Source: Lampris incognitus (Eukaryota; Chordata; Actinopteri; Lampriformes; Lampridae). Taken from it: a stretch of DNA of 64,000 bases. Shown in pieces: positions 7,921 to 48,028 of this stretch. The number at the start of each line of letters is the position of its first letter. The stretch's first letter is position 1. Under the pieces are notes generated by a model, which was given only the letters and a program-made list of their open reading frames with translations, did no database searches and had not been told where the DNA came from. The position numbers were made by a program, and so were the translations under genes. The stretch is from NCBI RefSeq assembly GCF_029633865.1, contig NC_079213.1:89701131-89765130 (forward strand), given 5' to 3'.

Positions 7921-9550
7921 CAGTGCATCCGGAAAGTATTCACACCCCTTCACTTTCCCCACATTTTGTTATGTTACAGCCTTATCCCAAAATGGATTAC
8001 ATTCCTTTTTTTCTCTCATCAATCTACACACAATACCCAATAATGACAAAGTGAAAAAGGTTTTGTAGAAATTTTTGCAAATTTATTAAAAATAAAAAAC
8101 TGAAATATTGCATGTACATAAGTATTCACACCCTTTGCTATAACGCTCAAAATTGAGCTCAGGTTCATCCTGTTTCCACTGATCATCCTTGAGATGTTTC
8201 TACATCTTGATTGGAGTCCACCTGTAGTAAATTCAATTGATTGGACTTGATTTGGAAAGGCACACACCTGTCTATATAAGGTCCCACTGTTGACAGTGCA
8301 TGTCAAAGCAGAAACCAAGCCATGAAGTCAAAGGAATTGTCTGTGGACCTCCAAGACAGGATTGTATCGAGACACAGCTCTGGGGAAGGGTACAAAAATG
8401 TTCTACAGCTTTGAAGGTCCCAAAGAGCACAGTGGTCTTCATCATTCGTAAATGGAAGAAGTTTGGATCCACCAGGACTCTTCCTAGAGCTGGCCGCCCA
8501 GCCAAACTGAGCAATTGGGGGAGAAGGGCCTTGGTCAGGGAGGTGACCAAGAACCTGATGGTCACTCTGACAGAGCTCCAGCATTCCTCTGTGGAGATGG
8601 GAGAACCTTCCAGAAGGACAACCATCTCTGCAGCACTCCACCAGTCGGGCCTTTATGGTAGAGTGGCCAGACGGAAGCCTCTGCTCAGTAAAAAGCACAT
8701 GACAGCGCGCTTGGAGTTTGCCAGAAAGCACCTAAAGGACTCTCAGACCATGAGAAACAAGATTCTCTGGTCTGATGAAACCAAGATTGAACTCTTTGGC
8801 CTGAATGCCAAATTTCACGTCTGGAGGAAACCAGGCACCTCTCATCACCTTGCTAATACCAGCCCTACAGTGAAGCATGATGGTGGCAGCATCATGCTGT
8901 GGGGATGTTTTTCAGCGGCAGGAACTGGGAGACTAGTCAGGATCGAGGGAAAGATGAATGGAGCAAAGTACAGAGAGATCCTTGATGAAAACCTGCTCCA
9001 GAGCGATCAGGACCTCAGACTGGGGTGAAGGTTTACCTTTCAACATGACAACGACCCTAAGCACACAGCCAAGACAACGAAAGAGTGGCTTCGGGACAAG
9101 TCTGTGAATGTCCTTGAGTGGCCCAGACTTGAACCCCGTTAAACATCTCAGGAAAGACCTGAAAATAGCTGTGCCGCGACGCTCCCCATCTAACCTTACA
9201 GAACTTGAGAGGATCTGCAGAGAAGAATGGAAGAAATACCCCAAATATAGGTGTGCCAAGCTTGTAGTTTCATACCCAAGAAGACTTGATGCTGTAATCA
9301 CTGCCAAGGGTGCCTCAACCAAGTACTGAGTAAAGGGTGTGAATACTACTTATGTACATGCAATATTTCAGTTTTTTATTTTTAATAAATGTGCAAAAAT
9401 TTCTACAAAACCTTTTTCGCTTTGTCATTATGGGGTACTGTGTGTAGATTGATGAGAGAAAAAAAGGAATTTAATCCATTTTGGGATAAGGCTGTAACAT
9501 AACAAAATGTGGGGAAAGTGAAGGGGTGTGAATACTTTCCGGATGCACTG
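7921..9550 (+). mobile_element. Tc1-like DNA transposon, copy 1 (both ends present)
   Basis: The element starts CAGTGCATCCGGAAAGTATT at 7921 and ends with its inverse at 9550. The inverted repeats continue inward for roughly 200 bp, as in fish Tc1 elements. The left flank is the expected TA (7919-7920); the right flank reads CA, a likely decay of TA. It carries a broken transposase gene and is inserted in copy 1 of the long repeat, since copy 2 lacks it. Confidence 0.93.
8322..9329 (+). pseudogene. Tc1 transposase, inactivated
   Basis: This is the DDE cut-and-paste enzyme of the surrounding Tc1 element. The natural start [10 protein letters not shown] is at 8322. A frameshift near an A-run at about 8393 moves the frame, giving [11 protein letters not shown] and the DNA-binding HTH region, then [13 protein letters not shown] (first Asp), then [13 protein letters not shown] (second Asp, after an in-frame TGA at 9026-9028). 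Near 9120 about 10 bases are lost before PDLNP. In the segment after it, where an active enzyme has VEHLW, this copy reads VKHLR, so the catalytic Glu is Lys. All lesions are read directly from the sequence; the reference motif is family knowledge. Confidence 0.92.
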
Positions 9551-11682: not shown

Positions 11683-12435
11683 AGCCACACGACCAAGGCT
11701 GGTGGAATTTGTTATCCAGCTGATTAGGGAGGCGCACGAAGGGAAGGGTGACCTAGTTGAGCTTTGGCTTGACCTTGCCAATGCATATGGCTCAATACCC
11801 CACAAACTGACTGAGATTACCCTGGACCAATACCATGTATCCAGTAAGATCAAGGACCTCATCCTGAACTACTACAGGAACTTCATGCTCAGATTCACTT
11901 CTGGGAACACAACATCAGACTGGAACCAGCTTAAGAAGGGGATTATAACTGGGTGTACCATCTCAGTTACACTCTTCACCCTCGTCATGAATATGGTGGT
12001 CAAGGCAGCTGAAACTGAGTGCAGAGACCCTCTGTCCAAGTTTGGCGTTCGGCAGCCCCCCATCAGAGCCTTTATGATGACCTCACTGTCACCACATCAT
12101 CAGTGCCTGGTGGTAGGTGGATCCTCCAGGGCCTGGAGAAGCTCATCTCTTGGGGCAAAGATTTTACAGTTTACAAGGTTTATGAAGGAACCCTGTCGAC
12201 AGTGGAGACCTTGGAGAGGAAGATCAGTGCCTACTTCTGGAGATGGCTGGGTCTGCTGCGCAGCCTTAGCAGTGCAGCACTGCATGGGAGGAGCAACAAT
12301 CTCCAGCTCCCTATCAGCAACCTCAATGAGGAGTTCAGGGTTTCTCGCACATGAGAGGCACTGCTCTATTGGGACTCCAAGGACTCTAGAGTGGCATCAG
12401 CAGGCATTATGATGTGGACAGACAGTAAATGGAGA

Positions 12436-13013
12436 TAGTCCATGGGCCAGAGCCCAAAATTTCCTATTTCGGTACACTCAAGGTGGCAAAACTTGCTTAT
12501 AATTTTTGAAAGGATCCATGTCTGTAGATGATATTTTGGTATGATAACCATTCCTGAGTGGGAGCTGTATCACAGTTATCAGCTCATGAAGTTAACCACC
12601 CCCTAAAGTAAATTGCATTTTAGACGCTGGTGCATATCCTGGTTTAGCCTCATGGTCAGGACATTTTTCAATGTTCTATAATATTGTCTTTGGTATCATT
12701 TTAAAGGGGACCTTCTTAGCTTTCATTCAAGCCCTGTTGTGGATATTTCTCACAAATATAGAGGTCACTTGAGCTCTTCAACCCGTCAATAACACACATC
12801 TTTCTGCAATGTTCGCCTAAACTATATACTTTCTTTTAGCCCTGTGGCATCTAGGAATATCAGGGACACAAAACACAAAAACTGGAATACTCACAGGACT
12901 GTAAAGATTCAGGAAATGTATAATATACCCATACTATTTCATTGTGTGAGGTGATTGTGAACCTTAAATTAGAAGGGCATTATTACTAAGAAACTAACTA
13001 GACCAAAGCCAGT
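12436..13013. repeat. Left terminal inverted repeat of the Academ-like element
   Basis: It is complementary to 18677-19223 along nearly its whole length. The left arm has about ten extra bases after the first 16 (GCCCAAAATTTCC against CGA on the right). It ends at ACCAAAGCCAGTTAG, where the right arm diverges. Confidence 0.93.
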
Positions 13014-13170
13014 TAGTCCATGGGTCAGACCAGATATCGATATCACCCAAGGTGACACAACTTCACTGGTGCCATTTTATTTGGTACACTAACAGAAGTA
13101 AAATAATACATGATAACCTTTCCAAATGAGCAGCTATTTCATTTTTCTTTCAGGAAACCTGTTTCTGTGC
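13014..13170. repeat. Second, internal copy of the transposon's left terminus
   Basis: At 13014 the sequence restarts with TAGTCCATGGGTCAGA (one mismatch to the true end at 12436). It continues with recognisable but diverged versions of the outer end (CCAAGGTGACACAACTTC against TCAAGGTGGCAAAACTTG; CATGATAACCTTTCC against TATGATAACCATTCC). The right side lacks a clear equivalent. Confidence 0.7.
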
Positions 13171-13693
13171 CTCTCACGATTGTGTATTTGCCCAGATTTT
13201 TACAAATATAGCATTTCAACACCCCTGGTACTGATTAGCCTAGCTTAAACTCTGGGACAGTTCTTAGTTGGCCAACAACCAAGGATAACCAGTACTGTGT
13301 ACTTCCATTCATTGTGCTAAGCTAGGCTAACGTGCAGCCAGATAGCTTTCTACTAAACACATGTAGAGGAAACTGGTATCTATCTTCTTGTCTCACTCTG
13401 GAGAAGATTGTAAGCTAATTTCCCATAATGTTAGCATGTTCTTTTAATGTATATGTTAATATGATTAGTTAAAGTGCCTACGAGGAACTTTCATCTTGTG
13501 TTGATTTTAGCGGCCTCATGTGGACAAAATACAGCTGTTGCATAGCAACTAGGTAATGTATCTATTTGTGGCTATGTAAGATAAATAATGGTAATATGAC
13601 GCTGGTGAAGCAAAGTAAACTTTGTTTTAGTGGTGTTCATACACCTAAGTTACATGTATTTGTTTGTATGTGGCAGGTGAAAACTGACTGAAT

Positions 13694-16600
13694 ATGGCCA
13701 CTGGTGAACAAGCAAGTTTTTACCCAATACCAAAGCGCCCACGGGTGGAGTGCATTATCCACTGTTCTGATGATACAGATAAGCTGGTTTCACTACAAAG
13801 TGTCGACTCATGGAGAACTCTGCTCAGGGCAGCTCAGATACGAAATCATGCACCAGTTTTGAAACTGGCAAAAGACATTCCTGAGGGACAGATTCCAGCA
13901 ATCTACTACCACAGAAAGTGTCGCAGTATCTTCCCTATGAAGCAAATTCTTGATGGCCTCCTTGCAAAAGAAAAGAAAAGTTGTGTCTCTGCTGAAGAGA
14001 AACAATCTAAGAGAGTAGCTCGACATGCTCCAAGTACATCTAGGACTTATGATGCAGAGTGCATATTTTGTCAGAAAAACAGCAAATATTCCAAGAGACA
14101 GAATACGAGAGAAGTACTGGTGCAGTGTCGAGAACTGTGAGCTGATACAAAGATCAGGAGTGAAGCCACAAAGAAAAGGGACAGCAGAATCCTTGCCATT
14201 GTGAGTAGAGACCTTGTAGCAGCTGAAGGGCACTACCACAGGTCATGCTATAGACTTTACACCAAAGAAGAGGTTTCCAAAGGAGAGGTTGCCAGCAATG
14301 AAGATGATGATGCTGTAGCCCAGTATGAAGCTGCTGTGAATAAGGCATACAATGAGCTGTTCCTCTTCATCAGGATGGAGCTTTTTGGCAATCCTCAAGT
14401 GATGAAAATGACTGATCTCTCTTCTAGACTGGTAGCTTCAATGAACTCCCAAGGCATTGCCCAAGTCAAGGAATCAACCAAGAAGCACATAAGGCGAAAC
14501 CTGGAGAGTGAGTTTGCTGGAGCCTTGCAGATATTCCCTGATGAGAAAGGAAAATTCCTCCTCTATCCCGATAACTTGTCCATGAGGGAACTTGCCAAAG
14601 AAAATCAGTCTCTCAAAAGGGAGCTGCAGACCCTGAAAAGTGTCAGTGCACAAGATGTTATAGCCAAAGCAGCCATCAAATTGAGAGCAGACATTAAAAG
14701 TCAAGATGTTCCTCAAACCTGGCCGCCTAAAGTCAAACCAGAAGCAGAATGTCCTACCATTCCAGAGTCGCTCATTATCTTCCTGTACTCTCTACTCACA
14801 GGCTCAAATGATCCGGATCATGCATCCCAGAGAGTGCAGTGCCTTCTGCAGTCATTTGGCCATGACATAGTATATGCAGTGACATGTGGAAATACCAAGC
14901 CTTCCAAGCACATTGTTCTGCCATTCAGTGTCAAATCGTTGACAGGAAATGTAGAGTTGATAAACATCCTCAACCGACTTGGTCACAGTGTGTCCTATTC
15001 ACAGATGGAAGAGATCAACACTGCCCTGTGTCTCCAGAAACTCTCATCATCAGGGAGTGGCATTGCCCTTCCAGCTAACATCCATCCTGGCATATTCACA
15101 ACTTTAGCCTGGGACAATATCGACCGTCTTGAAGAAACTGTCAGTGGTGAGGGAACATCTCACAGAGTCAATGGGATTGCTGTGCAAGCAAAGCCAGTCA
15201 ACCCACTTCCTGTCCAACCCATGCCCACTGTTCCCAAAACAAAGAAGAGAAGCATTGATGGACCCCCACCAATGTTACCAACTTACAATGCTGGACAACG
15301 GGTAGGGCCACCACAAAGCAAAAAGTCAGATGCCGATACTGCAGCCAATACTAAGCTTGCCAGAGAGAAAAACCTTCTTTGGGTCCTAGCACGCATGTCA
15401 CAACAAGAAGAACAGTCAGTCAGCAGCTGGGCAGGCTTCAACATCCTGAATAGAGGAGAGATGACGGTCATCCCCGACAATATAGGCTATCTGCCTACCA
15501 TCAATGCTCCAGCGACACAAATGTCTACTGTCAACGAGGTGCTTAACCAGTCACTGAGCATCATGCAGTGCTTAGGCCTGAGGAAGATTGTCTGTGTCTT
15601 TGACCAAGCCCTGTATGCGAAGGCTGTCGAGATCACATGGAAACACCATGACAAGTTCCATGATATCATCGTTAGGCTTGGGGTATTCCACACCATCTGC
15701 ACACTGCTGGCAATAATAGGAAAGCGTTTCCAAGATGCTGGACTCAAATACCTCTGCATTGAGTCTGGCATGATTGCAGAAGGCTCAATTGCTGGTGTTA
15801 TGGATGGCCGCAAGTACAACAGGGCAGTGCGACTACACAAGCTCCTGTATGAGGCTCTCATGCGACTGACCTTGAATGGTTTCCTGTCCTGGTTGGAAGA
15901 AACTCACAGGAATGACATGGTTCACCTGAATGAGACACTGAAGACCATTGACAGCCTTGGGAAAGAAGTCTCACAACATGCTTTGAAGGAGGTCCTCGAG
16001 AACAGCTCTTGTACACGCATCATGGATCTATTTGAAGTCTACCGTGAGTTCCTTAGAGGTGGAAACGGCAGCCTCTCGAACTTCTGGATGTCCTATTTGG
16101 ACATGGTTGAAATCTTGTTGGGGTTCATCCGAGCATCCAGAGAGGGAGACTGGATGCTACACTTGGCTAGCATTCGAGCAATGATCCCATGGTGCTTTGC
16201 TTATGACAGGATGAATTATGCACGCTACCTCCCCTACTACTACGCCCAGATGTCTGAGCTGCCCATCACACACCCAGATGTGTACACAGAATTCATGGAA
16301 GGAGGCTTCTCAGTCCAACTGGGCTCCAACAATCCCTTTGGCCAAATCCCTGTTGACCAAGCTATAGAAGAACGGTGAACAAAGACACCCAAACAGCTGG
16401 AGGGACAAAGGGATTCAGCTTGAAGCCAGGAGCTGTGACCAAATATTATCTCACAGCTGAGTATAGAAGCATGTACCTCAGACAGCTGAGAGACCTGACA
16501 GGTCAAGGCAGGTGCAAATGGTCTCATCCAGATCTACAGAGTCCAAGGATCAAGAGAGATGAAGCAGATGTCCAGTCTCTCATGGACCTTATGGAGAATA

Positions 16601-18369
16601 ACTGGCTCAATCCTATGTCCCCTGATGAGATTGATTTGGTTAGCCTCTCCACTGGCAACATGGCTCCACCTGATGTGACCATAGATCTCTTGAGAGCTCT
16701 TGAGAAAGGAGAAGAGGCCTACCAAGCATTCCAGCAAACAAGGTTAGATGCAGACCCACCACCTGTGAAATTCCACGACAAGATGACCAAGCAAAGTCTG
16801 AAAACATTCTCCAATGTCAGCACAAAACAAGCTCATGGAAAGAAAGCACAGGATGTGGTTCTGAAGGCAGATAGAAACCTTTTCAGTCACATGATCCTGG
16901 TGGCCGAAAGCAGGAAGGTGAATCTGAAGGATGTCCTTGCCTACCCATTGGGCCCACTACCATGGGCACTGGCAAATGCTGATGGGTCCTTACGAAAAAC
17001 AAACAAGGCTGCACTTGCCAGAGAGCTTGAAAAGAATGTATCTCCTGCAGAAGACATCCCAATCCCATCTACTTCCATCATTGATGGGATGAGCCTGGTC
17101 CAAAAAATGAATGGCAACAACAAAACCTTTGCACAGGTGGCGGAGTCAGCCTTGACCCAGGTCCTCCATGAGGGAGCACAGAGTGGGAGGATTGATGTTG
17201 TTTTTGATGTCTATCACCAGACTTCGATCAAAGATGCTGAACGACTGAACCGGGGTGGAGACATCACTCTCCAGTACAAGAATCTTGCAGGGGGACACCA
17301 CGTCTAGCAGTGGAGAAAATTTCTGTGCAGTTCTTCCAACAAGACCAGTCTCATCAAGTTTCTGGTGGAAGAGTGGAAACTCCCACGATACAGAGCTATG
17401 CTGCATGGCAAGGTGTTGTACATGACCTGTGAGGAAACCTGCTACAAGTTGACAGAAGATGGGTGTGAGGAAGCAGCAGAACTGCACTCCACACATGAAG
17501 AAGCTGACACCCATCTGCTCCTGCATGCATTGCATGCAGCAAATGCGGGCTCAAAGTCAGTTATCATCACAGCTGAGGACACTGATGTCATGGTGCTTTG
17601 TCTTGGCTTCCAGAAGGACATCACCTGTCCCATCTACCAGAAGTGTGGGACTCAGAACCGCACACGGTTTGTCGACATCACCAAACTGGCAAGTTCACTT
17701 GGAGACAGCATCTGTGACAGCCTAATTGGCTTACATGCCTTCACAGGCTGCGACACTGTCAGTGCATTCGCTGGTCGAGGGAAGCTGAATGCCCTGAAGA
17801 TAGTGAGAAAGCACACTTCCTGCCAAGAGACTTTTAGTCAACTGGGACAGACATGGAATGTGAGTGATGAGCTGTTCCAGAAAATTGAGCAGTTCACCTG
17901 TCGGATGTATGTTGCTAATACCAGCACTGCTGAGGTGAACAAACTGCGTTACCAGCTCTTCTGCACCAAAAGGGGAGAGGTTGAGTCCAGCCAGCTGCCA
18001 CCATGTAGAGACTGTCTCTTTATGCATGTTCAACGAGCCAACTATCAGGCAGCAATATGGAAGTGCTGTCTGCAGGCTAACCCTGTGGTGCCAAGCCCTA
18101 CTGAGTATGGATGGACAGACGATGAAGGCAAGCTGGCCATTTACTGGATGCGCTCCCCACCTGCACCAGATGTGGTCTTGGAAATGCTAACATGCAAGTG
18201 TGTGCATTCATGCAAAATGCCAAGCTGCATGTACCTGTCAAATGGACTTCCATGCACAGACATGTGCAGGTTACAGACCTGCAGTAATCAAAAACAGCAG
18301 GATGGTCCAGAACTGGACTTTGAACTTGGGGAGTCAGATGATGAGAGAAACGAGCAGTTTGATGAATGA
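13694..18369 (+). pseudogene. Putative transposase with C-terminal XPG/FEN1-like nuclease domain, interrupted
   Basis: The coding region is about 1,550 codons. The start ATG at 13694 follows a non-coding left end. The N-terminal part has paired Cys/His residues (IIHCS, YYHRKCRSIF, CIFCQKN, HYHRSCYRLYTKEE) suggesting a zinc-binding region. A long middle part has no motif I can name. Near the end come HEEADTHLLLH (about 17494), ITAEDTDVMVL (about 17566) and FTGCDTVSAFAGRGK (about 17740). This order of acidic metal ligands followed by a helix-hairpin-helix-like segment is the FEN1/XPG nuclease pattern. A Cys-rich tail follows (CKCVHSCKMPSCMY). Three lesions are visible: an in-frame TGA at 14138, a one-base frame change in a short G run at about 16374, and an in-frame TAG at 17305. 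Otherwise the frame is remarkably intact. Mechanism as transposase is inferred from position. Confidence 0.75.
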
Positions 18370-18676
18370 CAGTGTGATGATTCTGATGGTATTACTGTGG
18401 TAGTAGTCTATTGATGCACAGGATGTTGATTCTGGACTTGGTTACCCAGAGCTTGATAACAATAATGTAACCATATTCACATATACCCATTACCCTACCC
18501 ATTACCATTACATATACCCACTAATGATATGGGATTACATGTATCATTGACTAAGTATATGTAAATGTCAATGTTGTTTAAAATATTAAAATAGTTCATT
18601 ACCTCACTATGGTATTCCTTTTTATCATGTATTTTGATTGTGTATTTAAACAAATGTATAGAGACCAGTTTGTGAC

Positions 18677-19223
18677 CTAACTGGCTTTGGTCTAGTTCTT
18701 ATTTAAGGCTCACAATCACCTCACACAATGAAATAGTATGGGTATATTATACATTTTCTGAATCTTTACAGTCCTGTGAGCATTCCAGTTTTGTGTTTTG
18801 TGTCCCTGATATTCCTAGATGCCACAGGGCTAAAAGAAAGTATATAGTTTAGGCGAACATTGCAGAAAGATGTGTGTTATTGACGGGTTGAAGAGCTCAA
18901 GTGACCTCTATATTTGTGAGAAATATCCACAACAGGGCTTGAATGAAAGCTAAGAAGGTCCCCTTTAAAATGATACCAAAGACAATATTATAGAACATTG
19001 AAAAATGTCCTGACCATGAGGCTAAACCAGGATATGCACCAGCGTCTAAAATGCAATTTACTTTAGGGGGTGGTTAACTTCATGAGCTGATAACTGTGAT
19101 ACAGCTGCCACTCAGGAATGGTTATCATACCAAAATATCATCTACAGACATGGATCCTTTCAAAAATTATAAGTAAGTTTTGCCACCTTGAGTGTACCGA
19201 AATATCGTCTGGCCCATGGACTA
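18677..19223. repeat. Right terminal inverted repeat of the Academ-like element
   Basis: It is the inverse of the left arm, from CTAACTGGCTTTGGTCTAGT at 18677 to the terminal CCATGGACTA at 19223, with scattered substitutions. Confidence 0.93.
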
Positions 19224-20585
19224 AGAGCCCAGGAAGGCCTGGAGATAGTAGAGTCTTGGCTGAGACACAGGGCTGTGGTGGGCATGGTGGCAACTGGATG
19301 GGCAGGGCTGTGCGCCATCCTACAACCTCGCTATGATAAGGCCCATGGCAAGGACAACCACCATTTAGACCCGGAGTAGGTGCGGGCAGGTGTTGAGGAG
19401 GAAAAGACTAGCAGAATGGTGGGCATGTGGCAGCAGGGAGCATGGACAAGGTAGGAGGGTGCACTGGAGAGGAAGGTTTTCTAGGCACATCTGGCAGGCA
19501 GAACCGCAGGGGATCAAGTTCATGGTATAAGCCATGCATGATGTTCTGCCTAGCTCAGTACATCCTCATTTCCGGGGCAAGATTGATTCTCCATCATGTC
19601 GTCTGTGCCCTGGAAAAGGTTCAGTTGAGCACATCCTCAGCAGCTGCCCATCAGCCCTGGGGGAGGGCTGATATTGCTGGCAACATGACCAGGTCCTGAA
19701 GACAGATGCAGAGACCATCTCCAAAGCCGTGGCTTGCAACAAGCAGGCCTGCAGACAGAGGAACTTGCCTGTGTCAGGGCTGGTGAGCAGCCTCAATCAC
19801 AGCCCAGATCAGTAGCCAGTCTCCTCACCTCTGCGTCAGACTGGGAGCTGCAGGTCAACTGGGAGGGGGGGGGGCAGCTCAGGTTCCTGGACCACATTAT
19901 AACAACTCTGTTAAGGCCAGATATATTGCTGTCATCAGCATCTGTTGTTCTCGCTAAGGTTTCTTCCTATTTTTTCTCTGTTAAAGGATTTTTTTAGGGA
20001 GTTGTTCCTTATCCGATGCCGGGTTTAAGGTCAGGATGTTGTGTTGCTGTAAAGCCCCTTGAGGCAAATTTGTAATTTGTGATATTGGACTATACAAATA
20101 AAATTGGCTTGACTTGACTTCAAAGCAAGTGCTCCTTATAGAGCTGACAGTTCCCTGGGAGGACTAGATGGAAGAGGCAAATGAGCGGAAGCGGTCCAAG
20201 TAGCAGGAGCTGGTGGATCAGTGCCAGAGGAGAGGCTGGAAGGTGTGTTGTGAGCCCATTGAAGTGGGGTTTAGAGGCTTTGCTGACTGCTCACTGTGCA
20301 AGGTCTACACTCTACTTTGCATCACTGGGGCTGCAAAAAGGAAAGCCATCAAGTCTACTATGGAAGGTGCAGAGAGGGCCCCAAGTTGGCTTTGGATCAG
20401 AAGGAGTGATCTGTGGGCCAATGCTGCTGAGACACAAGTCAGGGCCCGATCAACCTTGGCTGGGTCGCCTGAGCAAGGGTATATGATGTTGAAAGACCCA
20501 AGAACCTCAGGAAACATCACTGATGATGTGTCCCAGTGCATTCTAGGATGTATCTTAGAATCATTGCCGCAGGTCTTGTAAAACA
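19224..20585 (+). mobile_element. REL-endonuclease LINE, 3' part (zinc knuckle and restriction-like endonuclease)
   Basis: This continues the LINE of 10436-12435. The frame resumes with AQEGLEIVESWLRHRA. A CX2CX7HX4C zinc motif lies at 19597-19647 (C-RL-C-PGKGSVE-H-ILSS-C). An RPD endonuclease motif follows at 19914-19922 (LLRPDILL) and the catalytic ELTVPWE at about 20142, then RGWKVCCEPIEVGFRGFADCSLC and KWLW-like WLWIRRSDLW at about 20385. CCHC plus R/KPD plus E is the signature of R2/R4-type site-specific LINE endonucleases. A dispersed repeat (19946-20122) sits between RPD and E. Several stops and frameshifts are present. The 3' end is near the A-rich tract at 20587-20604. Confidence 0.8.
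19946..20122 (-). repeat. Dispersed teleost repeat, second copy, inserted in LINE endonuclease
   Basis: It is the inverse of the family at 676-975: GTTAAAGGATTTTTTTAGGGAGTT, CTTTACAG-type sequence, then ACAAATAAAATTGGCTTGACTTGACTT at the end. It separates the RPD and Glu motifs of the LINE endonuclease. Confidence 0.7.
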
Positions 20586-24589: not shown

Positions 24590-27508
24590 GTTTTCTTAGT
24601 GCCAGCCCCAAGACCGCATAAAGGGGGAGGGTTGCATCAGAGGTAAAACCTTTGCCAAATCAAATATGCAGATTATAAATCAGATTTCCATACTGGATCG
24701 GTCAAGACCCGGGTTACCAATGACTACCACCACTACTGTTAGCCAGCAGGGTTGCCAGGAAACTAGCTACTGCTGGGTAAAGGAGAAGGAGAGGGGGAAG
24801 GGTAGGAGTGTGGAGGTGAGAGTCGGAACTTTGAATGTTGGCACTATGACTGGTAAAGGGAGAAAGCTGGCTGATATGATGGAGAGAAGGAAGGTGGATC
24901 TATTGTGTGTGCAAAAGACCAGGTGGAAAGGGAGGAAGGCCAGGAGCATTGGAGGTGGGTTCAAACTCTTTTACCATGGTGCAGACAGGTGGAGAAATGG
25001 AGTAGGGGTAATCTTGGAGGAAGAGCATGTGCACTGATTTAGTGGTGGAGAGTGCACTCAAGGAGGAGAGAGTGGTGTTTTAGCAGACTTCAATGTGCAT
25101 GCTGGTGAAGGGAATGGAAGTGATGAGGAGGTGATGGGTAGGTATGGTGTCAAGGTGAGGAATGTTGAAGACAGATGATGGCGGATTTCACAAAAAGGAT
25201 GGAAATGGCTGTGGTAAATATGTATTTCAAGAAGAGGGAGGAACACAGGGTGACATAAGAGTGAGAGGAAGGTACACACAGGTGGACTATATCTTATGCA
25301 GGGGGTGCAATCTGAAAGAAATGGAAGACTCTAAGGTGCTGAGAATGGGGAATGTAGCTAGGCAGCATCAAATGGTGGTCTGTAGGATGACTTTGGAGAT
25401 CAACAAGAGGAAGGGAGTGAAAGAAAAGCCAAGGTTCAAATGGGGGAAGTTAAACAAGGAATATTGTTTTGTGGAGTTCAGGGAGGAGCGTCGTCTGGTG
25501 TGTCATCTGGACAGAGCAAGGTAAACTGGGAGACTTGGAGGTGGAATGAAGTACTTGAAGGTATCTGGAGGAAGAGGCTGGCCAAGAAGTGGAATAGTTA
25601 AGAGAGATGAAGAAAGTAGACAGGAGTACAAGGAGATGCAGTTAAAAGTGAAGAAAGAGGTGGCAAAGGCAAAGGAAAAGGTGTATGGCGAGTTGTACGA
25701 GAGGTTGGACACTAAGGAAGGAGAGAAGGACTTGTACCGATTGGCTAGACATAGGAACCGAGCTGGGAAGGATGTGCAGCAGGTTAGTGTGATGAAGGCT
25801 AGAGATGGAAATGTGCTGACAAGCGAGGAGTGTGTTGAGAAGGTGGAAGGAGTACGTTGAGGGGTTGATGAATGAAGAAAATGAGAGAGAAAGTTGGATG
25901 ATGCAGGGAAAGTGAATCAGGGAGTGTGGTGGATTAGCAAGGATGAAGTAAGGGTAGCTGTGATGAAGATGAAAGGATAGAAAGGTGGTTGGTCCAGATG
26001 ACACACTCGTGGACGCATGGAGATGTTTAGGAGATATGGCAGTGGAGTTTTTAACTAGATTGTTTAACGCAAGCTTGGAAAGTGCGAGGATGTCTGAGGA
26101 GTGGAGAAGAGGCATACTGGTACCAATATTCAAGAATGAGGGTTATGTGTAGAACTGTAGCAACTACAGAGGTATTAAGTTGATCGGCCACAAGATGAAG
26201 TTATGGGGACAAGTAGTGGAAGCTAGGTTAAGAGGAGAGGTAATGATTAGCAAGCAGCAGGGTGGTTTAATGTCAAGAAAGTGCACTACAGCTGTGATGT
26301 TTGCTTTGAGAGTGTTGATGGAGAAGTATAGAGAAGGTCAGAAGGAGTTACATTGTGTCTTTGTGGCCTTAGAGAAAGCACAGGACAGGGTGCTGAGGGA
26401 AGAGGTGTGGTGTTGTATGAGGAATTTGGGAGTGGCAGGGAAGTATGTAAGAGTGGTGCAGGATATGTATGAGTGTGGTGTGACAGTAATGAGGTGTGTG
26501 GTAGAAGTGGCAGATGGGTTCAAGGTGGAGGTGGGATTACATCAAGGATCAGCTCTGAGCCCTTTCTTGTTTGCAATGGTGATTGACAGGTTGATGGAAG
26601 GGATCAGGCAGGAGTCTCCATGGACTATGATGTTCACGGAAGACATTGTGATCTGTAGTGAGAGTAGGGAGCAGGTTGAGGAGAGGCGGAGGTATGCACT
26701 GGAGAGAAGAGGAATGAAAGTCAATAGAATCAAGATGGAATATATATGGGGGCGTTCGGGTAGCGTAGCAGTCTATTCTGTTGCTTACCAACACGGGGAT
26801 CCCGGTTTGAATCCCTGTGTTGCCTCCGGCTTGGTCGGGTGTCCCTACAGACACAATTGGCCGTGTCTGTAGGTGGGAAGCCGGATGCGGGTAGGTATGT
26901 GTCCTGGTCACTGCACTAATGCCTCCTCTGGTTGGTTGGAGCACCTGTTCAAGGGGGAGGGGGGGAACTGGGCTGAATAGCGTTATCCTCCCATGCACTA
27001 CGTCTCCCTGGTGAAACTCCTCACTGTCAGGTGAAAAAAGCGCCTGGTGATGCCATGTGTATCAGAGGAGGCATGTGGTAGTCTGTAGCCCTCCCCGGAT
27101 TGGCAGAGGGGGTGGAGCAGTGACCGGAACGGCTCGGAAAATGTGGTAAAAATTAGCTAAGTACAATTGGGGAGAAAAAGGGGGGGGAAATACATATGAA
27201 TGAGAGGGAGGACAGTGGAATGGTGAGGATGCAAGGAGTAGAGGTGGTGAAGGTGGATGAGTTTAAATACTTGGGATCAACTGTTCAAAGTAATGGGGAG
27301 TGCGAAAGAGAGGCGAAGAGGAGAGTGCAGGAAGGGTGGAGTGGGTGGATAAGAGTGTCAGTGTGATTTGCGACAGAAGGGTACCAGCAAGAATGAAACA
27401 GAGCATTTACAAGATGGGAGTGAGACCAGCTATGTTGTATGGTTTGGAGACAGTGGCACTGACAAAAAGACAGGAGGCAGAGCTGGAGGTGGCAGAGTTG
27501 AAGACACA
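24590..27508 (+). mobile_element. RTE-clade LINE, nearly full-length remnant with endonuclease and reverse transcriptase
   Basis: The 5' region has the GCCAGCCCCAAGACC... leader and CCACCACTACTGTTAG. The AP endonuclease begins at 24810 with VRVGTLNVGTMTGKGRKLADMM, VDLLCVQKTRWKG (the Glu of a QET motif is replaced: QKT) and a short VQVDYILCR-like part near 25280. The RT region runs from VGPDD (about 25990), via FNASLESARM, RGIKL, to QGSALSPFLFAMV (about 26540) and MMFTEDIVIC (about 26628; FADD in active relatives). A SINE interrupts it at about 26750-27190. Homology stops after ELEVAELK at 27508. Large internal deletions and frameshifts show it is dead. Confidence 0.82.
26750..27190 (+). mobile_element. 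tRNA-derived SINE inserted in the RTE element
   Basis: The head has box A-like GGGTAGCGTAGCAGTC and box B-like GGTTTGAATCCC at tRNA spacing. The body holds CTCCTCTGGTTGGTTGGAGC and CTGGTGAAACTCCTCACTG, and the tail is G/A-rich (GGGGAGAAAAAGGGGGGG). It splits an RTE segment coding KMEYI / NER. The flanks AATATATATG and AAATACATATG are an imperfect target duplication of about 10 bp. Part of another copy is at 59020-59180. Confidence 0.85.
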
Positions 27509-32645: not shown

Positions 32646-33536
32646 CAGTGCATCCGGAAAGTATTCACACCCCTTCACTTTCCCCACATTTTGTTATGTT
32701 ACAGCCTTATTCCAAAATGGATTAAATTCCTTTTTTTTCTCATCAATCTACATACAATACCCCATAATGACAAGGTGAAAAAGGTTTTGTAGAAATGTTT
32801 GCAAATTTATTAAAAATAAAAAACTGAAATATTGCATGTACATAAGTATTCACACCCTTTGCTATGACGCTCAAAATTGAGCTCAGGTCCATCCTGTTTC
32901 CACTGATCATCCTTGAGATGTTTCTACATCTTGATTGGAGTCCACCTGTAGTAAATTCAATTGATCGGACATGATTTGGGAAGGCATACACCTGTCTATA
33001 TAAGGTCCCACTGTTGACAGTGCATGTCAGAGCAGAAACCAAGCCATGAAGTCAAAGGAATTGTCTGTGGACCTCCGAGACAGGATTGTATCAATGCGCA
33101 GATTTGGGGAAGGGTACAAAAAAATGTCTACAGCTTTGAAGGTCCCAAAGAGCACAGTGGTCTCCATCATTCATAAATGGAAAAAGTTTGGATCCACCAG
33201 GACTCTTCCTAGAGCTCTTCCCAGCCAAACTGAGCAATCGGGGGAGAAGGGCCTTGGTCAGGGAGGTGACCAAGAACCCGATGGTCACCCTGACAGAGCT
33301 GCAGCGTTCCTCTGTGGAGATGGGAGAACCTTCCAGAAGGACAACCATCTCTGCAGCACTCCACCAATCAGGCCTTTATGGTAGAGTGGCCAGATGGAAG
33401 CCTCTGCTCAGTAAAAGGCACATGACATTCCGCTTGGAGTTTGCCAGAAAGCACCTAAAGGACTCTCAGACCATGAGAAACAAGATTCTCTGGTCTGATG
33501 AAACCAAGATTGAACTCTTTGGCCTGAATGCCAAAC
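32646..33536 (+). mobile_element. Tc1-like transposon, copy 2, left half only
   Basis: It starts CAGTGCATCCGGAAAGTATT after a TA and is closely similar to copy 1. It stops abruptly after GGCCTGAATGCCAAA at 33536, where antisense Gypsy-A sequence begins. The other half is not in the window. Confidence 0.93.
33046..33536 (+). pseudogene. Tc1 transposase N-terminal part, truncated
   Basis: [17 protein letters not shown] opens in frame and continues through [14 protein letters not shown] and the HTH region. A short deletion around 33214 (the AGRPAKLSN region of copy 1) shifts frame. The frame then returns with VARWKPLLSKRHM and [17 protein letters not shown], which contains the first catalytic Asp. 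Everything after is missing. Confidence 0.92.
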
Positions 33537-35849
33537 GTCCGGTAATGGTGTCGGTTGTAATGGTTCAGGTGGGTCAGGTCTGGCAACTATCTGACAGCTG
33601 TGGCAACTTTTACAGTACTTTTCAGCTGCCCTATCCATGCTAGGCCACCACACCTTGGTCCTGAGATGTTGCTTAGTCCCACCGATCCCCAGATGTCCCT
33701 CATGTGCCAATGCCAGGGCTCTTGCATGCAATGTTGTGGGTAACACAATACATGTTACACGAAGAACTAGGTACCCCACCACGCACAGCTCATTCACAAT
33801 TGCTGCATCGGTTTTACAGTTTCCAAAATGTCCAGTTGTGATTGCCTTCCATACTTCAGTTAGTTCTGGATCAGCTGCAGAGGCCTCTTCCATCTCTCTA
33901 GTAGTGAGTGCTTTGGAGGTGGCGTTTATGGCTACAAATCTCATGTAATAATCTGAGCCATGGGCGTGTCTCTCTTGCTTTGCTGTCTCTCCCAGCAGTC
34001 GTGACAATGGGTCGGCAATGTTTTGTTTGCTCGGGATGTGTACCACCTTGAAATTGTATGGCTGTAGCCTAAGTACCCACCTCTCTATGCGGGCACAGGG
34101 TTTGAATTCGGGCCCATATATTATTTCTAATGGCTTATGGTCAGTTACCAAATCAAACCCTCGGCCATACACATATGGGTTAAGTCTCTCGCGAGCCCAT
34201 ACAAGAGCTAGAGCCTCTCTGACTGTCTGAGTATTTCCTCTCGCAGTCAGTTAAACTATGACTCACATAGCATATTGGCACTTCCTGTCTCTGTTGGTTC
34301 TGAACCAGTACTGCACCTAAACCTACCCGACTGGCATCCACTATCGTTTGTATCTGTACACACCATTATGTACAGCAAAGGTAGTGATTTCCCTTGACTC
34401 AGGGGTCAGTTCAAGTTGGTGACACCCCCAGGTCTAGTTTACTAAACACTGTCGAGCCATTCATCTCTTGAAGAATCTCATCCACAGTGAGGAATGGATA
34501 TCACCCTCTCACTATGGCCTGGTTTGCACGTCTCATGTCTAGACATAACCTTACATCATGGTCTGATTTTGGTACAATAACCACAGGGTTTACCCATGGG
34601 GTGGGGCCAGTTACCGGTTCAATAATGTCCACCATGTCCAATAATTGTTTTATTTTGGCCTCTACTGCGCCCCTTAGGTTGAACGGAAAACGCCTCAGCG
34701 GCTGGGCCACAGACTTTACTTTCGGGTCTATGTACAGCAGGATAGGCAACATGGTCCAGAAAGGTCCGGTATGGGTGCAGGTCTTTGTTACAACCAAGCA
34801 GTTACACACCTGATTCTATAGATCAACCAATAGTCTTGTTCCAACCAAGCAGTTACACACCTGATTCTATTCGTCAACCAATAGTCTTTGCTAAGGACCT
34901 TGATTTGTAGACTCAGGTGTGCAACTCCTTGGTTGGAACAAAGACTTGCACCCACACCGGACCTTTCTGGATCATGTTGCCTATCCCTGATATACAGGTT
35001 TATCTGTTTTGTCCTGGAATACCTTTGGATACTGCTGTTTGAGTGACTGTCTTTTGTCTACCACAGCTGAGACATTTGCGCCTATTTTAAAAACTCCCAA
35101 GTTTCATGGCTGTCTCCCTTCCTAGTAGTGGCTCCCCATTGCCTTTAACCACAATGAGCTCTGTCTGCTCAGTTTTGCTACCTATTGTAATCTTACATGT
35201 AAAGGCACCTTTAACTGACAGAGGTTGGCTAGACGCATAAGAAAATAACTTTCTCGATGTCTTAGGGATATATGAATGACACTTAATGCATTCGAACTTT
35301 AACCATTCCCATGTGTTTTCATCAATAACATTACTGGTTGCACCAGAGTCAATCAGCATTTTCAGATTTACTCCCCCTACACTAAGGGTAAGTCTCCCAG
35401 TCATTTCATTCCCATTAATCACAACTGCAAAGTCACCCCCCCTCTATATTGTTTATTCTGTGTTTCTTTATAGACCTACTCTTTGTGAGGAACACTTTTG
35501 AGAAATGATCCTTCCCACCGCACTTATGACAAGTTTGTCCTCACGCTGGGCATTTCGGATCCTTGCCCATGTGGTTTGTGTGTCCACAACTATAACATTT
35601 CCTTTCATCATTGTCACCATTTCCCTTTGGTTTCCTTGCCTAGCGTTTCATCCATTTCCCTTCAGTTTGTGTAATGCGACGAATAGTCTCTGTCTCCGCC
35701 TTCTCCGTGAGTGACATAGCTGACATCTGCTCCTCGACATTTTCACACTGTGAGGCTATTTGTAATGTGTGGGTGTGTGTTAGGCCTAGCCCTTCTTCTA
35801 GCAGTTTCCTCCACACATACTATGTTGATATACATTTACACAGGATAGC
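33537..35849 (-). mobile_element. Ty3/Gypsy element A, internal part (rest of gag, protease, RT remnant, RNase H, integrase start)
   Basis: Reading on the minus strand from 35849: gag continues with AILCKCIS and KLLEEGLGL (about 35840-35780). It goes on to CCHC knuckles near 35600-35510 (CYSCGHTNHMG, then CHKCGGKDHF-like), and a protease with MLIDSGATSNVID (35350-35310). The RT start follows (PWVNPVVIVPKSDHDVRLCLDMRRAN, about 34590-34520), then most of the RT body is missing. RNase H comes next (VTDHKPLEIIYG, ADPLSRLL, 34140-33990) and the integrase HHCC region (HEGHLGIGGTKQHL, CKSCHSCQ, 33720-33600). It is truncated at the Tc1 junction. Its gag N-terminus is at 50822-51205, beyond the Copia insertion. 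Confidence 0.88.
34738..34989. mobile_element. hAT-type MITE in Gypsy-A
   Basis: The left end is CAGGATAGGCAACATGGTCC and the right end GGATCATGTTGCCTATCCCTG, inverted repeats of at least 60 bp (CCGGTGTGGGTGCAGG, TTGTTCCAACCAAGC). Flanks ATGTACAG (34730-34737) and ATATACAG (34990-34997) are an 8-bp duplication with one mismatch. An internal segment with CAACCAAGCAGTTACACACC is duplicated in tandem. CAGGG-type ends with 8-bp duplication fit hAT. Confidence 0.9.
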
Positions 35850-38329: not shown

Positions 38330-41311
38330 ACACACTGCGTGGAGTTGACTGATGGCACAAGGAGCAACGGAATCTCAAAGCACAGAGGAGACGTGGAGGT
38401 GTGCTTGATCGACAGCAGAGGGCGACACCACAACATGACGCTGAGACAGGCGTTGTACATCCCCTCATACCCACAAGACATATTTTCTGTGAAAGCAGCT
38501 ACTGTCAGCGCAGCGACCGTAATCTTCAGAAAAGGAAAGGATGTTCTATGAGACAGAGATGGTACATAATTCCACATTCATGAGCATAACAGACTATACT
38601 ACTTGCACACAGTAAATGAGGAATGTGATGACCAATGTAAAGCGTGTTTTGATATACAGACATGGCATCAGATTCTTGGGCATTGTGATTATGATGATGT
38701 TCAGAAATTACAAAATGTTGATAGTATGACAATCAAGGGCAAAGTAGACAAACCTACCCTATATTGCGAAGTGTGCACTCAGGGAAAATCTTTCCAAACT
38801 AATAATATGGAGCCTGATGTGAGAGCCAAAGCAGCTCTAGAGTTGGTACACACAGATCTAGCGGGACTAATAGACCCAGAGTCCAGAGACAGGTATAGTT
38901 TTGCGTTATCATTCACTGATGATTATTCCAGTGCAGTGTTTGCGTACTTTCTAAAAAAATAAGAGTGACACAGTGCAAGCAACAGAGAACTTTCTTGTTG
39001 ACACTGCCCCATACGGGAAAATTAAATGTATCAGATCTGACAATGTTACAGAATTCATGGGAAAGAATTACCAGGCACTACTCAGCAGAAATGTAATTAG
39101 GCATGAGACCTCAGCACCATACTCACCACACCAGAATGGTACAGCTGAGCGAAACTGGCGAACCCTGTTTGACATGGCAAGGTGTATGCTAATAGAGAGC
39201 GAGTTGCCAAAAATGTTACGGACCTATGCAGTGCAGACAGCAGCTGTAGTGAGGCACAGATGCTTTTGCAATCGCACAAAACAGATGCCTTACTTAATGT
39301 TGACAGGAAAACGGCCTAACATTTCTAGGATGCAAAAGTTTGGGTCAGTGTGTTATGCCTATAAGCATGACAAGAGAAAACTACACTCGAGGTGTGAGAA
39401 AGGAATCTTTGTCAGGTATGACAAGAATAACCCAGCCTACATGGTCTATTATCCTGACAATGGGAAAGTGCAGAAGCACAGACTGGTTAAGTTTGTGAGA
39501 AAAACGATTGCAGAGCAGCAGACACAGACTGACATGACGCCTGATGATGATGACTTCGAGGTGCAGAATAGGGCTAGCAAGACCAGGCAAAATACTGATG
39601 TGAGTCCAAGATGTACTCAGAGCCAGGTCTCAGTAACTAGGCCTGAGGTGAACAGCCAAACACGGACAGGCGAGCCCAGCCATGAGCCTACACGATACCC
39701 TTTAGAGTGAAGAAGAAACCAGGTTATTTAAGTGAATATGTATCGCATGAGGAGAGTGATGATCAGGTACTGATGAACAACATAGATTACTGTTACAGAC
39801 TGATCTGTAATGTACCCCTTACATTCAGGTAAGCGGTAACCTCAACTAACTCAAAGGAATGGATTAATGCAATGGATGATGAAATGCAATTAATTCAGAG
39901 AAAATGACACATTTACCTTGACCAACTTACCTGAGGAAAAGAATGCAGTGGGGGGTAGATGGGTATATGCGATTAAGAACGATGTTGATGGCTCTGACAA
40001 ATGCACGGCATGGTATGTAGCTTAAGGATACAGTCAAAAGATGGGTGTAGACTATGAGGAGACATTTTCTCCTACGGCTAACTTGACCAATATCAGAGTG
40101 TTGATACAAAAAGCAGTGCAGGAAAACCTGATTTTACATCAGATGGATGTCAAAACTGCCTACTTACATGCACCAATAGATTGCGAGATTTTCATGGAAC
40201 AACCAGAGGGTTACGAGGTGAAATCTAGTACAAATGAAAAGTTGGTGTAGGAGCTAGAAAAGTCATTATATGGGTTAAAACAGTCAGGCAGGAACTGGAA
40301 AAAACCGTCGCATGAGTATCTGAGCGAAAATGAGTTTTTGCAAAATCCAGCTGATCACTGTGTTTACACAAGGGAAACAGAAAATAAGAAAGTGATAATT
40401 ATAATATGGGTTGATGACTTGATTATTGCTGCCAGTGATGAAAATGCACTGAAGGTTGTAAAGGAGATGCTCACAGCAAAATTCAACATAAAAGACTTGG
40501 GTAAATTAAAACATTTTCTTGGTATCGATTTTGACCAGTGTGATAAATGTGTGAAAATGTCACGGAAGAGGTATGTGGAAAAATGCTAGAAAGGTTTGAA
40601 ATGCAAGATTGTAAACCTAGAGCAACACCCTGTGAACAAAAATCGAACCACACTAATGATGCAGAAATGTTGAGTGATGCCAGAAAATACAGAGATAGTA
40701 GGTAGCCTAATCTATCTGACTACATGTACGAGACCGGATCTAAGTTTTATAGTAAGTAAACTGTCACAGTACTTTACTGAGCCAACAGAAGAGCAATGGA
40801 TTACTGTAAAACATGTACTGAGATATCTGAAAGGCACAATTGACAGAGTTGTGTTACAGGAAATGTGATGATGAGAAACTGTGGCTACAAGCGTACAATG
40901 ATGCAGATTGGGTGGCTGACGTAACTGACAGATGCAGCACAACTGGTTATTATATAAACCTAAATGAAAATGGTCCTTTGGTTTCTTGGAAAACCAAAAA
41001 GCAGCCCACTGTTTCACTGTCCAATTGTGAGGCAGAGAATATGGCGTTAGCCGCAACTACTCAAGCGTGTATGTACCTATAACAACTAATAGAATGTATT
41101 GACAGACGTCAGTACTCACCACCTAAGGTCTATGAGGATAACCAAGGTGCAATAGCGTTGGCAAAGAATCCTATAAGCAGACAGAAATGTAAGCACGTTG
41201 ACATAAAGTATCACTTAGGTCCACTGTGAATGATGGAAAAATAAGTCTGGAGTATTGCCCAATAGACCAGATGGTAGCAGATGTGATGACAAAACCCGCA
41301 ACAAAAAATTA
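38330..41311 (+). pseudogene. Copia integrase-RT-RNase H region, interrupted
   Basis: Integrase: zinc region with ILGHCDYDDVQKL and CEVCTQGK (38670-38780), core ELVHTDLAGLI (38850), IRSDNVTEF (39030) and SPHQNGTAERN (39130), giving D, D and E. An extra A in a run at about 38952-38958 breaks the frame between them. RT: YEETFSPTANLTNIRVLI (40054), MDVKTAYLHAPI (40145), IIIWVDDLIIAA (40395). RNase H: SNCEAENMALAATTQA (41020), then DMVADVMTKPA-like end (about 41270). Several stops lie in 39710-40040 and 40586-40670. Confidence 0.9.
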
Positions 41312-43453: not shown

Positions 43454-45307
43454 ATGGCGCATTTCATTGGCAATATTGCTGAATACAAGGAAGGTAAAGA
43501 GGACTTCGAGTCGTACCTTGAAAGATTGGAGCAATGGATGATCGTTAATGAAGTGGAGGACAGTAAGAAGGCCAATGTTTTCCTGTCTGTGATAGGCGCA
43601 GAAGCCTATGGCCTACTAAAGAACCTCTGCATACCAGACAAACCGAGTAGCCTCACATATGCAGTACTGAGCGGGAAACTAGCATCCCATTATAAACCCA
43701 AGCCACTAATCATAGCTGAACGTTTTAGATTTCAGAAAAGAAACCAACTAGAAAATGAGTCAGTGTCTGATTATGTGGTTGCATTAAAGCACCTGTCCAC
43801 ACATTGTGAATTCGGTCAGCATTTAAATGAAGCACTGAGAGACCGATTTGTTAGTGGTTTAAAGGTGGAGGCTATTCAGAGAAAGTTGCTCGCAGAACAC
43901 AATCTGACTTTTGCAAAAGCATGTGAGCTGGCCTTATCTATGGAAATGGCGTCAAAGAATACGCTGGAGTTTGCCAGCAAACCAAGCGGAGCTGCAACTG
44001 TGAATAAGATAGACAAGAAGAGAACAAGCAAGGGTGCGTGGAGAAGCAAGTCGTCCACCAGCGAGTGGAAAAGCAAGCAACCTACCAGTGATAACTCTAG
44101 ACCACAGAGAACAGAAACGCACCAACCCTGTTACCGATGTGGAGGTAACAACCATGCAGCTCAAGTATGTAGGTATAAAACCGAGACATGCCACAAGTGT
44201 TCCAAGGCAGGGCACATAGCAAGAATGTGTAAAACTAAAAACAGACAGGGACATACACAGTATGTGGCTGAAGACCACAGTCCAAGTGAGAGAGGAGATG
44301 GAAATGAGGATGAACTGTTTGGTGCGTATCTGATGAATACAGTGTACTCCACGAATACAGTTGGTAATGGAAAAAAGGACATCAAGGTCAATATTAAGTT
44401 AGAAGGAAACCCTGTAGACATGCAGCTTGACACAGGAGCTGCCGTAACCCTGGTATCTGAGATAGTGTACAAGGAACATCTCTCACACCTGCCACTGAAA
44501 GAAAGTAAAGTGCGTCTGTCAACCTTTTCCGGTGAGAACATTCCCCTGATGGGCCAAGTGACTGTCAATGCGAAATATGACAACCAGAGTGGAGATTTAC
44601 CTCTTGTGATTGTGAAAGGTGACAGACCAGCCCTCTTTGGCCGTAACTGGCTGGCCAATTTTAAACTAGACTGGGCAAGCATATTCTCAGTTACACCAGC
44701 AGGGGGCAGTGATAACACAGATGTAGAGGCAGTGTTACAGAGACACAAAGCAGTATTTGCTGAGGAGCCTGGCACTGTTCGTGAATTTAAGGCAAATATC
44801 AAAGTGAAGCCAGATACAAAACCTGTCTTCAGAAAGGCAAGACCAGTGCCATACACACTAAAAGACGCAGTTGAAAAAGAGCTAGATAGGCTGGAAAAAG
44901 CTGGTATTATCTCAAAGATAGACCATAGTCAGTGGGCTGCCCTGATAGTAGTTGTACCCAAATCAGACAAGTCAATTCGTATCTGTGGAGACTATAAAGT
45001 CACGGTTAATCAGAGTGTGGAAGAGGAGACCTATCCACTACCGAACGCCGAGGATCTCTTCGCCACACTGGCCGGGGGCACTCTCTTTAGCAAATTAGAT
45101 CTCTCACATGCCTACCAACAGCTTGAGTTCGAGAAGGACTCAGAGAAGTATTTAACAATAAATACCCACAAAGGACTGTATGTTTATCACAGACTTTCAT
45201 ATGGAGTGTCGAGTGCACCTTCTATGTTCCAGAATGTGATGGACCAGATACTACAAGGCTTAGAGCATGTGACCTGCTTCCTCGATGACATACTAGTCGC
45301 AGCCTAG
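43454..45307 (+). pseudogene. Gypsy-C gag-protease-RT, ends prematurely at the catalytic motif
   Basis: Start MAHFIGNIAEYKEGKEDFES. Gag holds two CCHC knuckles (CYRCGGNNHAAQVC, CHKCSKAGHIARMC, about residues 227-262). The protease motif LDTGAAVTLVSE is at about residue 328. RT motifs are WAALIVVVPKSDKSIRICGDY (about 495), FSKLDLSHAYQQLEF (about 545) and CFLDDILVAA at the end. The TAG stop at 45305 lies inside a perfect 29-bp inverted repeat and is created by it. The polyprotein would build the particle, process itself and copy RNA. Confidence 0.93.
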
Positions 45308-45332
45308 TATGTCATCGAGGAAGCAGGTCACA
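45268..45332. repeat. Perfect 29-bp inverted repeat with 7-base loop at the RT FLDD motif
   Basis: Left arm 45268-45296 (TGTGACCTGCTTCCTCGATG...) and right arm 45304-45332 are exact reverse complements around TCGCAGC. The left arm encodes the VTCFLDDIL segment; the right arm is its inverted copy. Confidence 0.98.
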
Positions 45333-46781
45333 GAGGAGCAACTGAGGAACCTAGATGAGGTTTTGAGCCGACTGGAGAGCTACGGGGTAAGAGTGAAAAG
45401 AGCAAAATGTGACTTCATGCAGGAGAAAGTAGAGTACCAGGGGCATCTGATAGATAAAGAGGGACTTCACCCCACTGAGACAAAGGTTGCCGCCATCGTA
45501 AATGCACCCCAGCCCACAAACGTCACAGAGCTACGGTCATTCCTAGGACTGTTAAACTATTATGGCCGTTTCATGAAAGATCTGTCGACCGTATTGCAGC
45601 CACTACACCAACTCCTGAAGAAGGAAGTCGAATGGAAATGGACACCAGAGTGTGCAGCAGCATTCAAGGCTGCCAAAGAACAGTTAGTGAAAAGCTCAGT
45701 AGTAGTACACTACGACACGCAGAAACCACTGAGATTAGCTTGTGACGCATCCCCTTATGGGATAGGTGCGGTAATGTCACACATAATGGAAAATGGGGAC
45801 GAGAAACCAATCGCCTTTGCGTCACGTACGTTGACAGAGGCAGAGAGTAAATATAGTCAGATAGAGAAGGAGGCGTTGGCCATAATATTTGGCGTGACCA
45901 GATTTCATAAATATCTCTATGGCCGCAAATTCAGTTTAATAACTGACCACAAACCCCTCCTCGCCATCTTAGGACCCAAGTCAGAAATCCCTACACTAGC
46001 CGCTTTGCGTATGCAGAGATGGGCACTGAGGCTTATGGCTTATGACTACAGTATAGAGTACAGAACGTCAGCGGACAATGCGAATGCGGATGCGTTATCT
46101 AGACTGCCGGGGAAAGAAAAGGACAAAACAGCGGAGGAGAACAGCATTTTTTATTTCTCATTAGTAGATGAGCTACCCGTGCAGGCTACAGAGATTGCAC
46201 AGAGCACTCTCAAGGACCCAGTCCTATGCAAGGTACTGGAACTGACCCGGTCTGGATGGCCGAGTTACATCAACGATGACACACTGAAACCGTACTTCAA
46301 CCGAAGGAATGAACTGTCTGTGGAACAAGGATGCATTCTGTGGGGAATTCGAATTATCATCCCACCAGCACACAGAGAACGAATACTGTACGACCTACAC
46401 CAAGGGCACCCCGGAGGGTGCAGGATGAAAAGTTTGGCGAGGGGCTATTTATGGTGGCCTCAATTGGACAGTGATATCGAACGTGCAGTGCAGCAATGTG
46501 ATGCTTGTCAGAGTGTGAGGAAACTACCAACAGTAGCACCACTACACTGCTGGCAGTGGCCTACGAGAGTGTGGCAGAGGCTACATATTGACTTTGCAGA
46601 GAAGGATCAGCAACACTTCCTAGTGTTAGTAGACAGTCATTCAAAATGGCTTGAGGTGATCCCCATGGCAACAACTACCGCCGCCAAAACGATCGAAGTG
46701 CTGCGGAGCATCTTTTCGTCCTACGGTCTTCCTGAGGAGATCGTCTCGGACAACGGTACACAATTCACCTCGCTGGAGTAG
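45309..46781 (+). pseudogene. Gypsy-C RT thumb, RNase H and integrase, downstream frame
   Basis: After the foldback: NLDEVLSRLESYGVRVKRAKC and LRSFLGLLNYYGRF (RT connection). RNase H follows with LACDASPYGIGAVM, EKEALAIIFGVTRFHKYLYG, LITDHKPL and NANADALSRLPG. Then the integrase zinc region HQGHPGGCRMKSLARGYLWWP with CDACQ, and the core LHIDFAEK and VSDNGTQFTS. The TAG at 46779 results from a frameshift; the integrase continues in another frame at about 46785. Confidence 0.93.
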
Positions 46782-46784
46782 AAA

Positions 46785-47547: not shown

Positions 47548-47835
47548 CGCCGATACCCTCAGAGAGAGAGGGCACCTCCAAAACGACTGTCTTTGTAAGA
47601 TCAGCCGAGTTCCTGAATAAAAGAGTTCCTGAGAGACTAAATTGTTCAACTCCTGTTCAGAAAAAAATGTGAAAAAGAGTTCCTGAGACTGATATGTAAA
47701 TGGGCAAATGTGGGTCGAAGTGGGTTGTGTAACCAGTAATGACCAAGTAAAAGATGTTCAAAGTAATTTGCCATATCACATGTTTTAGAGTGATACTATT
47801 TTATTAGGGGAACTTCATAGTTTAAGGGGGAGGAG

Positions 47836-48028
47836 TGTAGTAGACCAACAGCGCTACCTAGTGGTGGTTAAGCTAGGCTCTCATATACCCCGGATGTTGA
47901 CTGCTGCGACAGTCGGAGAGTTACAATAAAGAGGAAAAGATGTTGGGAATTGGTCTCCGGCTGAAATCACTGTTATTGATATATTAGCAGTATAAGATAC
48001 ATCCAGATAATATAGAGAATATATTACA
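47836..48028 (+). repeat. 3' LTR of Gypsy-C
   Basis: Matches 43122-43314 with four differences by eye. Gypsy-B RT resumes directly after the GCCTT duplicate. Confidence 0.96.

Follow-up and report, generated by a model that had tools for sequence, protein, structure and literature searches.

When a large DNA transposon encodes a flap-type nuclease, which enzyme moves it? The question is raised by an element of 6788 bp at positions 12436–19223 (+ strand) of a 64,000-nucleotide stretch of Lampris incognitus contig NC_079213.1, called the window below. An earlier note, made from the letters alone, had described an Academ-like transposon with an XPG/FEN1-type nuclease, had recognised no DDE motif, and had suggested that the nuclease, not a DDE enzyme, may be the transposase or a repair-type partner. 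Our analysis indicates that the element is very probably a cut-and-paste DNA transposon of the AcademX type that has amplified recently, and its one protein combines a zinc motif, a winged helix, a P-element/hAT-like DDE core, a FEN1/EXO1-like nuclease and an eight-cysteine domain. Most likely, then, the element is moved by a DDE transposase that has a nuclease domain as partner within one polypeptide.

Domains and active sites of the encoded protein

The coding region (13694–18369, + strand) specifies one protein, 1557–1558 aa long in two intact copies. In the window copy it is broken by two in-frame stops and one frameshift, leaving open pieces at 13688–14137, 14141–16375, 16357–17304 and 17308–18366. 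The single coding region described earlier stands, whereas its third frame (16375–18369), taken as uninterrupted, contains a stop at 17305–17307. None of these lesions recurs in any of the other 28 aligned copies, and they therefore arose after insertion of the window copy or shortly before it. Conservation was assessed on 73 full-length proteins, consisting of L017 and the 72 of 88 matches (P0237–P0324) that were picked by length (1480–1620 residues); the set was drawn among the 120 matches listed, with P0325 and 86 further matches left out.

The middle of the protein (14825–16375, + strand) models as an RNase H core of the P-element/hAT type with an all-helical insertion, according to predicted structure and structure alignment. 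Foldseek returned nothing usable with this transposase model, and the P-element match came only from a second structure aligner. The first and second catalytic aspartates (15113–15115 and 15602–15604) are each present in 58 of 58, and the proposed third residue, a glutamate placed at 16367–16369 from the ends of alignments, in 42 of 43 letters; all three are kept in 73/73 full-length proteins. The lack of a DDE motif in the earlier note is not confirmed.

The nuclease was correctly foreseen in the C-terminal part. The domain at 17002–18099 (+ strand) has EXO1 and FEN1 as the closest folds of its predicted structure, over approximately 260 residues. Its seven acids (17083–17754, + strand; codons starting at 17083, 17206, 17500, 17506, 17578, 17584 and 17752) show at most one exception each among 63–64 letters, and each is invariant across the full-length proteins. 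The earlier note had also named a joint structural outcome that would speak against it, a DDE fold in the middle together with no XPG fold at the end; the former was found, and the XPG fold is present as well.

Three smaller domains flank these two. An N-terminal Cys2-His-Cys motif (14060–14248, + strand; C123, C126, H182 and C185 of the intact protein, kept in 71, 71, 73 and 73 of the 73 proteins) presumably binds zinc, and is followed by a winged-helix-like domain (14288–14581, + strand). The C-terminal eight-cysteine, CXC-like domain (18193–18282, + strand) keeps its cysteine columns in 71–72 of the 73 proteins, one of the eight cysteines being lost in the window copy; some sequence relatives carry the name Tesmin/TSO1-like CXC. 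At the sequence level, the four pieces of the window copy gave only sub-threshold Pfam matches, one PDB sequence search gave three matches at chance level (E 1.8–2.1), and another PDB sequence search gave none.

Ends, target duplications and age of the family

The element is delimited by its exact ends and flanks and by an empty site in a host repeat. Its ends are identical over 16 bp (TAGTCCATGGGCCAGA from 12436, with the complement closing at 19223), and the flanks read ...GGAGA before the element and AGAGCC... after it, so that AGA stands on both sides (12433–12435 and 19224–19226). The left (12436–13016, + strand) and right (18677–19223, − strand) terminal inverted repeats are 96.7% identical over 539 aligned nt, including a 416-nt arm pair at 100% and a 97-nt one at 96%. 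The span, the 16-bp ends, the flanking AGA and the inverted repeats given in the earlier note were all confirmed, the repeats measuring about 540 bp against the 550 bp stated there.

The insertion site could be reconstructed from other copies of the host sequence. With the flanks joined and one AGA retained, the sequence matches a dispersed repeat at 87–90% identity in 40 of 40 scored places (out of 202 first-look candidates), always across the junction. Five of five host-repeat copies aligned at the junction are uninterrupted and have a single AGA. Upstream, the flank matches reverse transcriptase weakly (RVT_1, E 2.1e-6, slightly short of the Pfam cut-off), and rejoining the flanks yields a 77-codon open stretch over the junction. 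The uninterrupted repeat copies and the reverse-transcriptase match therefore indicate that the element inserted into a LINE-like repeat, duplicating 3 bp.

Further copies were sought in the same 1.48-Gb genome by protein search and by DNA search of the element end. The protein search scored 60 places, the window copy included, all with 98–100% identity to the middle piece of the window copy; these came out of 2738 first-look candidates, a figure that is no copy number. The end search, by a method that skips common words, gave 15 matches. Both ends were checked in 71 copies (59 from the protein search, 11 from the end search, and the window copy), L019 at a contig end and L021, a relative of 65–80% identity, having been excluded beforehand. 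After removal of 16 copies with an end not where expected (2 of them with runs of N), the duplication is exactly 3 bp in 49 of 55, as had been proposed from the single copy. The remaining six comprise one 5-bp duplication, one of 9 bp and four copies without any. As a control, left flanks were set against right flanks from other copies, and 97 of 2970 such pairs (3.3%) agreed over 3 bp. Target preference is weak (C, followed by an A/T-rich triplet with A as its last base and by G; maximum 0.34 bits), and palindromicity of the target site barely exceeds that of shuffled pairs (3.08 versus 2.90 matches).

Several individual copies deserve mention. The exact 9-bp flank match (CCACACACA, CA-rich) belongs to L090/L091 (G000:C15, near 52.23 Mb) and has the AcademH length; the 5-bp match (AGCTT) belongs to L104/L105 (G000:C11, near 44.46 Mb). 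L046 and L060, approximately 30 kb apart on G000:C2, have a common left flank and different right flanks, which suggests segmental duplication or rearrangement around the element, and they are not independent among the 55 scored copies. L018 and L020 are internally deleted or rearranged derivatives with 5045 and 2502 bp between their ends, and both keep 3-bp duplications; the deletion breakpoint in L018 lies at a 6/7-base match. L021 (G000:C12:55313100-55321500) is a related element with ends approximately 76–80% and a coding part approximately 65% identical, and because of this 65–80% identity at least one older Academ-like family is evidently also present in the genome.

The family itself appears young. 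Among 29 copies, median divergence is 0.62% pairwise and 0.31% from their majority; the copies used for divergence and intactness were the best matches to the window copy, which makes the divergence too low and the share of intact copies probably too high. Assuming about 5e-9 neutral substitutions per site per year, a rate that is uncertain for this host, the family would be roughly 0.6 million years old, as estimated from these best matches. An open frame of 1560 codons is found in 28 of the 60 scored places (the window's own included) and one of at least 1530 codons in 34 of 60. Two of ten loci translated, L010 (1557 aa) and L017 (1558 aa), are intact from first methionine to stop, the ten including the internally deleted L018. 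The nonsynonymous/synonymous ratio is 0.78 of the neutral expectation, which is a weak sign of selection and fits copies mostly decaying after a recent burst from intact sources.

Next to the inner edge of the left repeat, the terminal sequence recurs in direct orientation as a second, diverged copy (13014–13063, + strand; 82% over approximately 50 nt), and a 10-mer of it sits 576–580 bp from the left end in each of the ten loci compared (L009–L018). Considered as an alternative element end, position 13014 resembles the outer end strongly only over those 50 nt or so, and over the whole length at the level of shuffled sequence (score 77, against 76 for the highest of 100 shuffles). The copies examined, which were not picked for this purpose, include none that ends there, and we regard the inner sequence as a subterminal duplicate of the end rather than a nested element.

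A search of the window found no further copy of the element, and a plasmid search with it gave no match, as expected. Other open reading frames scanned in the window (8300–9028, 26180–26872, 33408–34172, 38973–39710, 43454–50248 and 60284–63491) come from other mobile elements, namely a Tc1-type transposase, a LINE-like reverse transcriptase and what are probably Gypsy- and Copia-like retroelement pieces.

Probable division of labour between the two active sites

The two active sites most likely cooperate in the following way. The zinc motif and winged helix would hold the inverted repeats, and the DDE site would free the 3′ ends of the element and join them to the target strands with a 3-bp stagger. 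The nuclease would cut or trim the other (5′) strand at a forked or flap intermediate, and this removal could turn single-strand transfer into clean excision and insertion. In Tn7, that second-strand (5′) job is done by TnsA. A nuclease so strictly conserved, and joined to the transposase in one chain, presumably matters in every round of transposition.

Other assignments of roles have to be weighed against the same evidence. The invariant nuclease active site could be taken to favor the idea of the earlier note, with the nuclease itself as transposase and the RNase H-like middle only binding DNA. That the nuclease acts in place of a DDE enzyme is nevertheless very unlikely: a pure binding domain would need neither a P-element-like fold nor an invariant D, D and E, and 5′ nucleases are DNA-hydrolysing enzymes with no known strand-joining activity. 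A far more credible possibility, although still short of probable, is that the nuclease is an accessory repair enzyme, acting only after insertion in 5′-flap trimming or gap repair and dispensable for excision. Host EXO1 and FEN1, the closest folds, remove 5′ flaps or resect, and the internal deletion in L018, with its short breakpoint match, is what interrupted gap repair is expected to leave. Against such a role speak the fusion of the nuclease with the transposase and the invariance of its acids, which among full-length proteins equals that of the DDE residues, although a host would have its own FEN1; fusion and invariance fit a core role at least as well.

The nuclease could also bear on duplication length. 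AcademX elements have duplications of 3 or 4 bp and AcademH elements of 9 or 10 bp, a difference that has been tied to the encoded nuclease versus helicase (PMC10045372). This link between two lengths and two partner enzymes, together with the one exact 9-bp and one 5-bp match among 55 copies, would agree with a DDE core that, like that of AcademH, staggers its cuts by about 9 bp, with the nuclease usually shortening this to 3. We consider this improbable, as the 9-bp copy is a single case in CA-rich sequence and a duplication fixed by strand transfer would be hard to shorten later without removing the element. Returning to a DDE transposase with a nuclease partner, we tentatively suggest a more specific form of it, possible but on the unlikely side: a two-enzyme transposase in one chain, in which the P-element-like DDE core performs 3′-end cleavage and joining and the FEN1/EXO1-like nuclease is always needed to cut the second strand, as the eukaryotic equivalent of TnsA. 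Coupling of the two would fix the 3-bp length, and the rare 5- and 9-bp cases would be uncoupled events.

Relatives and comparison with known systems

Most sequence relatives are matches without a name, and the named ones are uncharacterised proteins from amphioxus, corals and anemones, molluscs, crustaceans, a sea spider, a beetle, hagfish and teleosts. Full-length relatives are found in such animals as Branchiostoma belcheri (amphioxus), Oculina patagonica (coral) and Nymphon striatum (sea spider), and the one-protein architecture is therefore widespread. PF20231, which may be an Academ-type transposase domain, is precomputed on a few relatives (P0033, P0044, P0065, P0296 and P0305) and was not reached by the pieces of the window copy. 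One close relative, P0138, comes from a metagenome bin labelled as bacterial (Sedimenticola), which most likely contains animal contamination.

Knowledge of AcademX elements comes largely from computer annotation, and we found no experimental work on one in the open-licence literature, as judged by titles and abstract openings. The family described here offers intact, nearly identical copies, clean ends, measured duplications and two nameable active sites, and is therefore a practical starting point. It raises the questions of why a transposase carries a flap nuclease and what sets duplication length. Its interest beyond the known AcademX type lies in its youth and intact copies, which make a poorly understood mechanism testable.

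P-element and hAT (Hermes) transposases resemble the protein in their RNase H core and in the all-helical insertion before the last acid. They differ in having no FEN1-type nuclease domain and in their 8-bp duplication, a length found in none of the 55 copies here. FEN1, EXO1 and XPG nucleases are alike in fold and in the seven-acid pattern, but have no detectable sequence similarity to the domain, which here is fused to a transposase and an eight-cysteine domain. The eight-cysteine zinc finger is itself an AcademX trait, and its cysteine columns are conserved here. KDZ (Zisupton) elements likewise differ by an 8-bp duplication (PMC12730594).

Academ is counted among the superfamilies with a DDD/E transposase (PMC9587614), and an Academ DDE/D profile has been used (PMC10294476). 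A comparison of four teleosts recorded Academ elements in three of them, at approximately 0.01–0.02% of the genome (PMC4746887), and their expression has been suggested in platyfish, where the authors ask for more testing (PMC4705583). AcademH, placed in the same superfamily by the literature, has a helicase and 9–10 bp duplications, in contrast to the 3 bp here; 9 bp is seen in 1 of 55 copies, and no helicase was matched by Pfam in the four coding pieces, much of the coding region being accounted for by other domains. AcademX is alike in its nuclease gene, 3–4 bp duplications, DDD/E transposase and terminal inverted repeats, and no differing feature was found in a comparison made by description rather than by Repbase sequences. 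The Academ-like label of the earlier note can thus be narrowed: the element belongs to the already described AcademX type, every defining feature of which that could be checked was found here.
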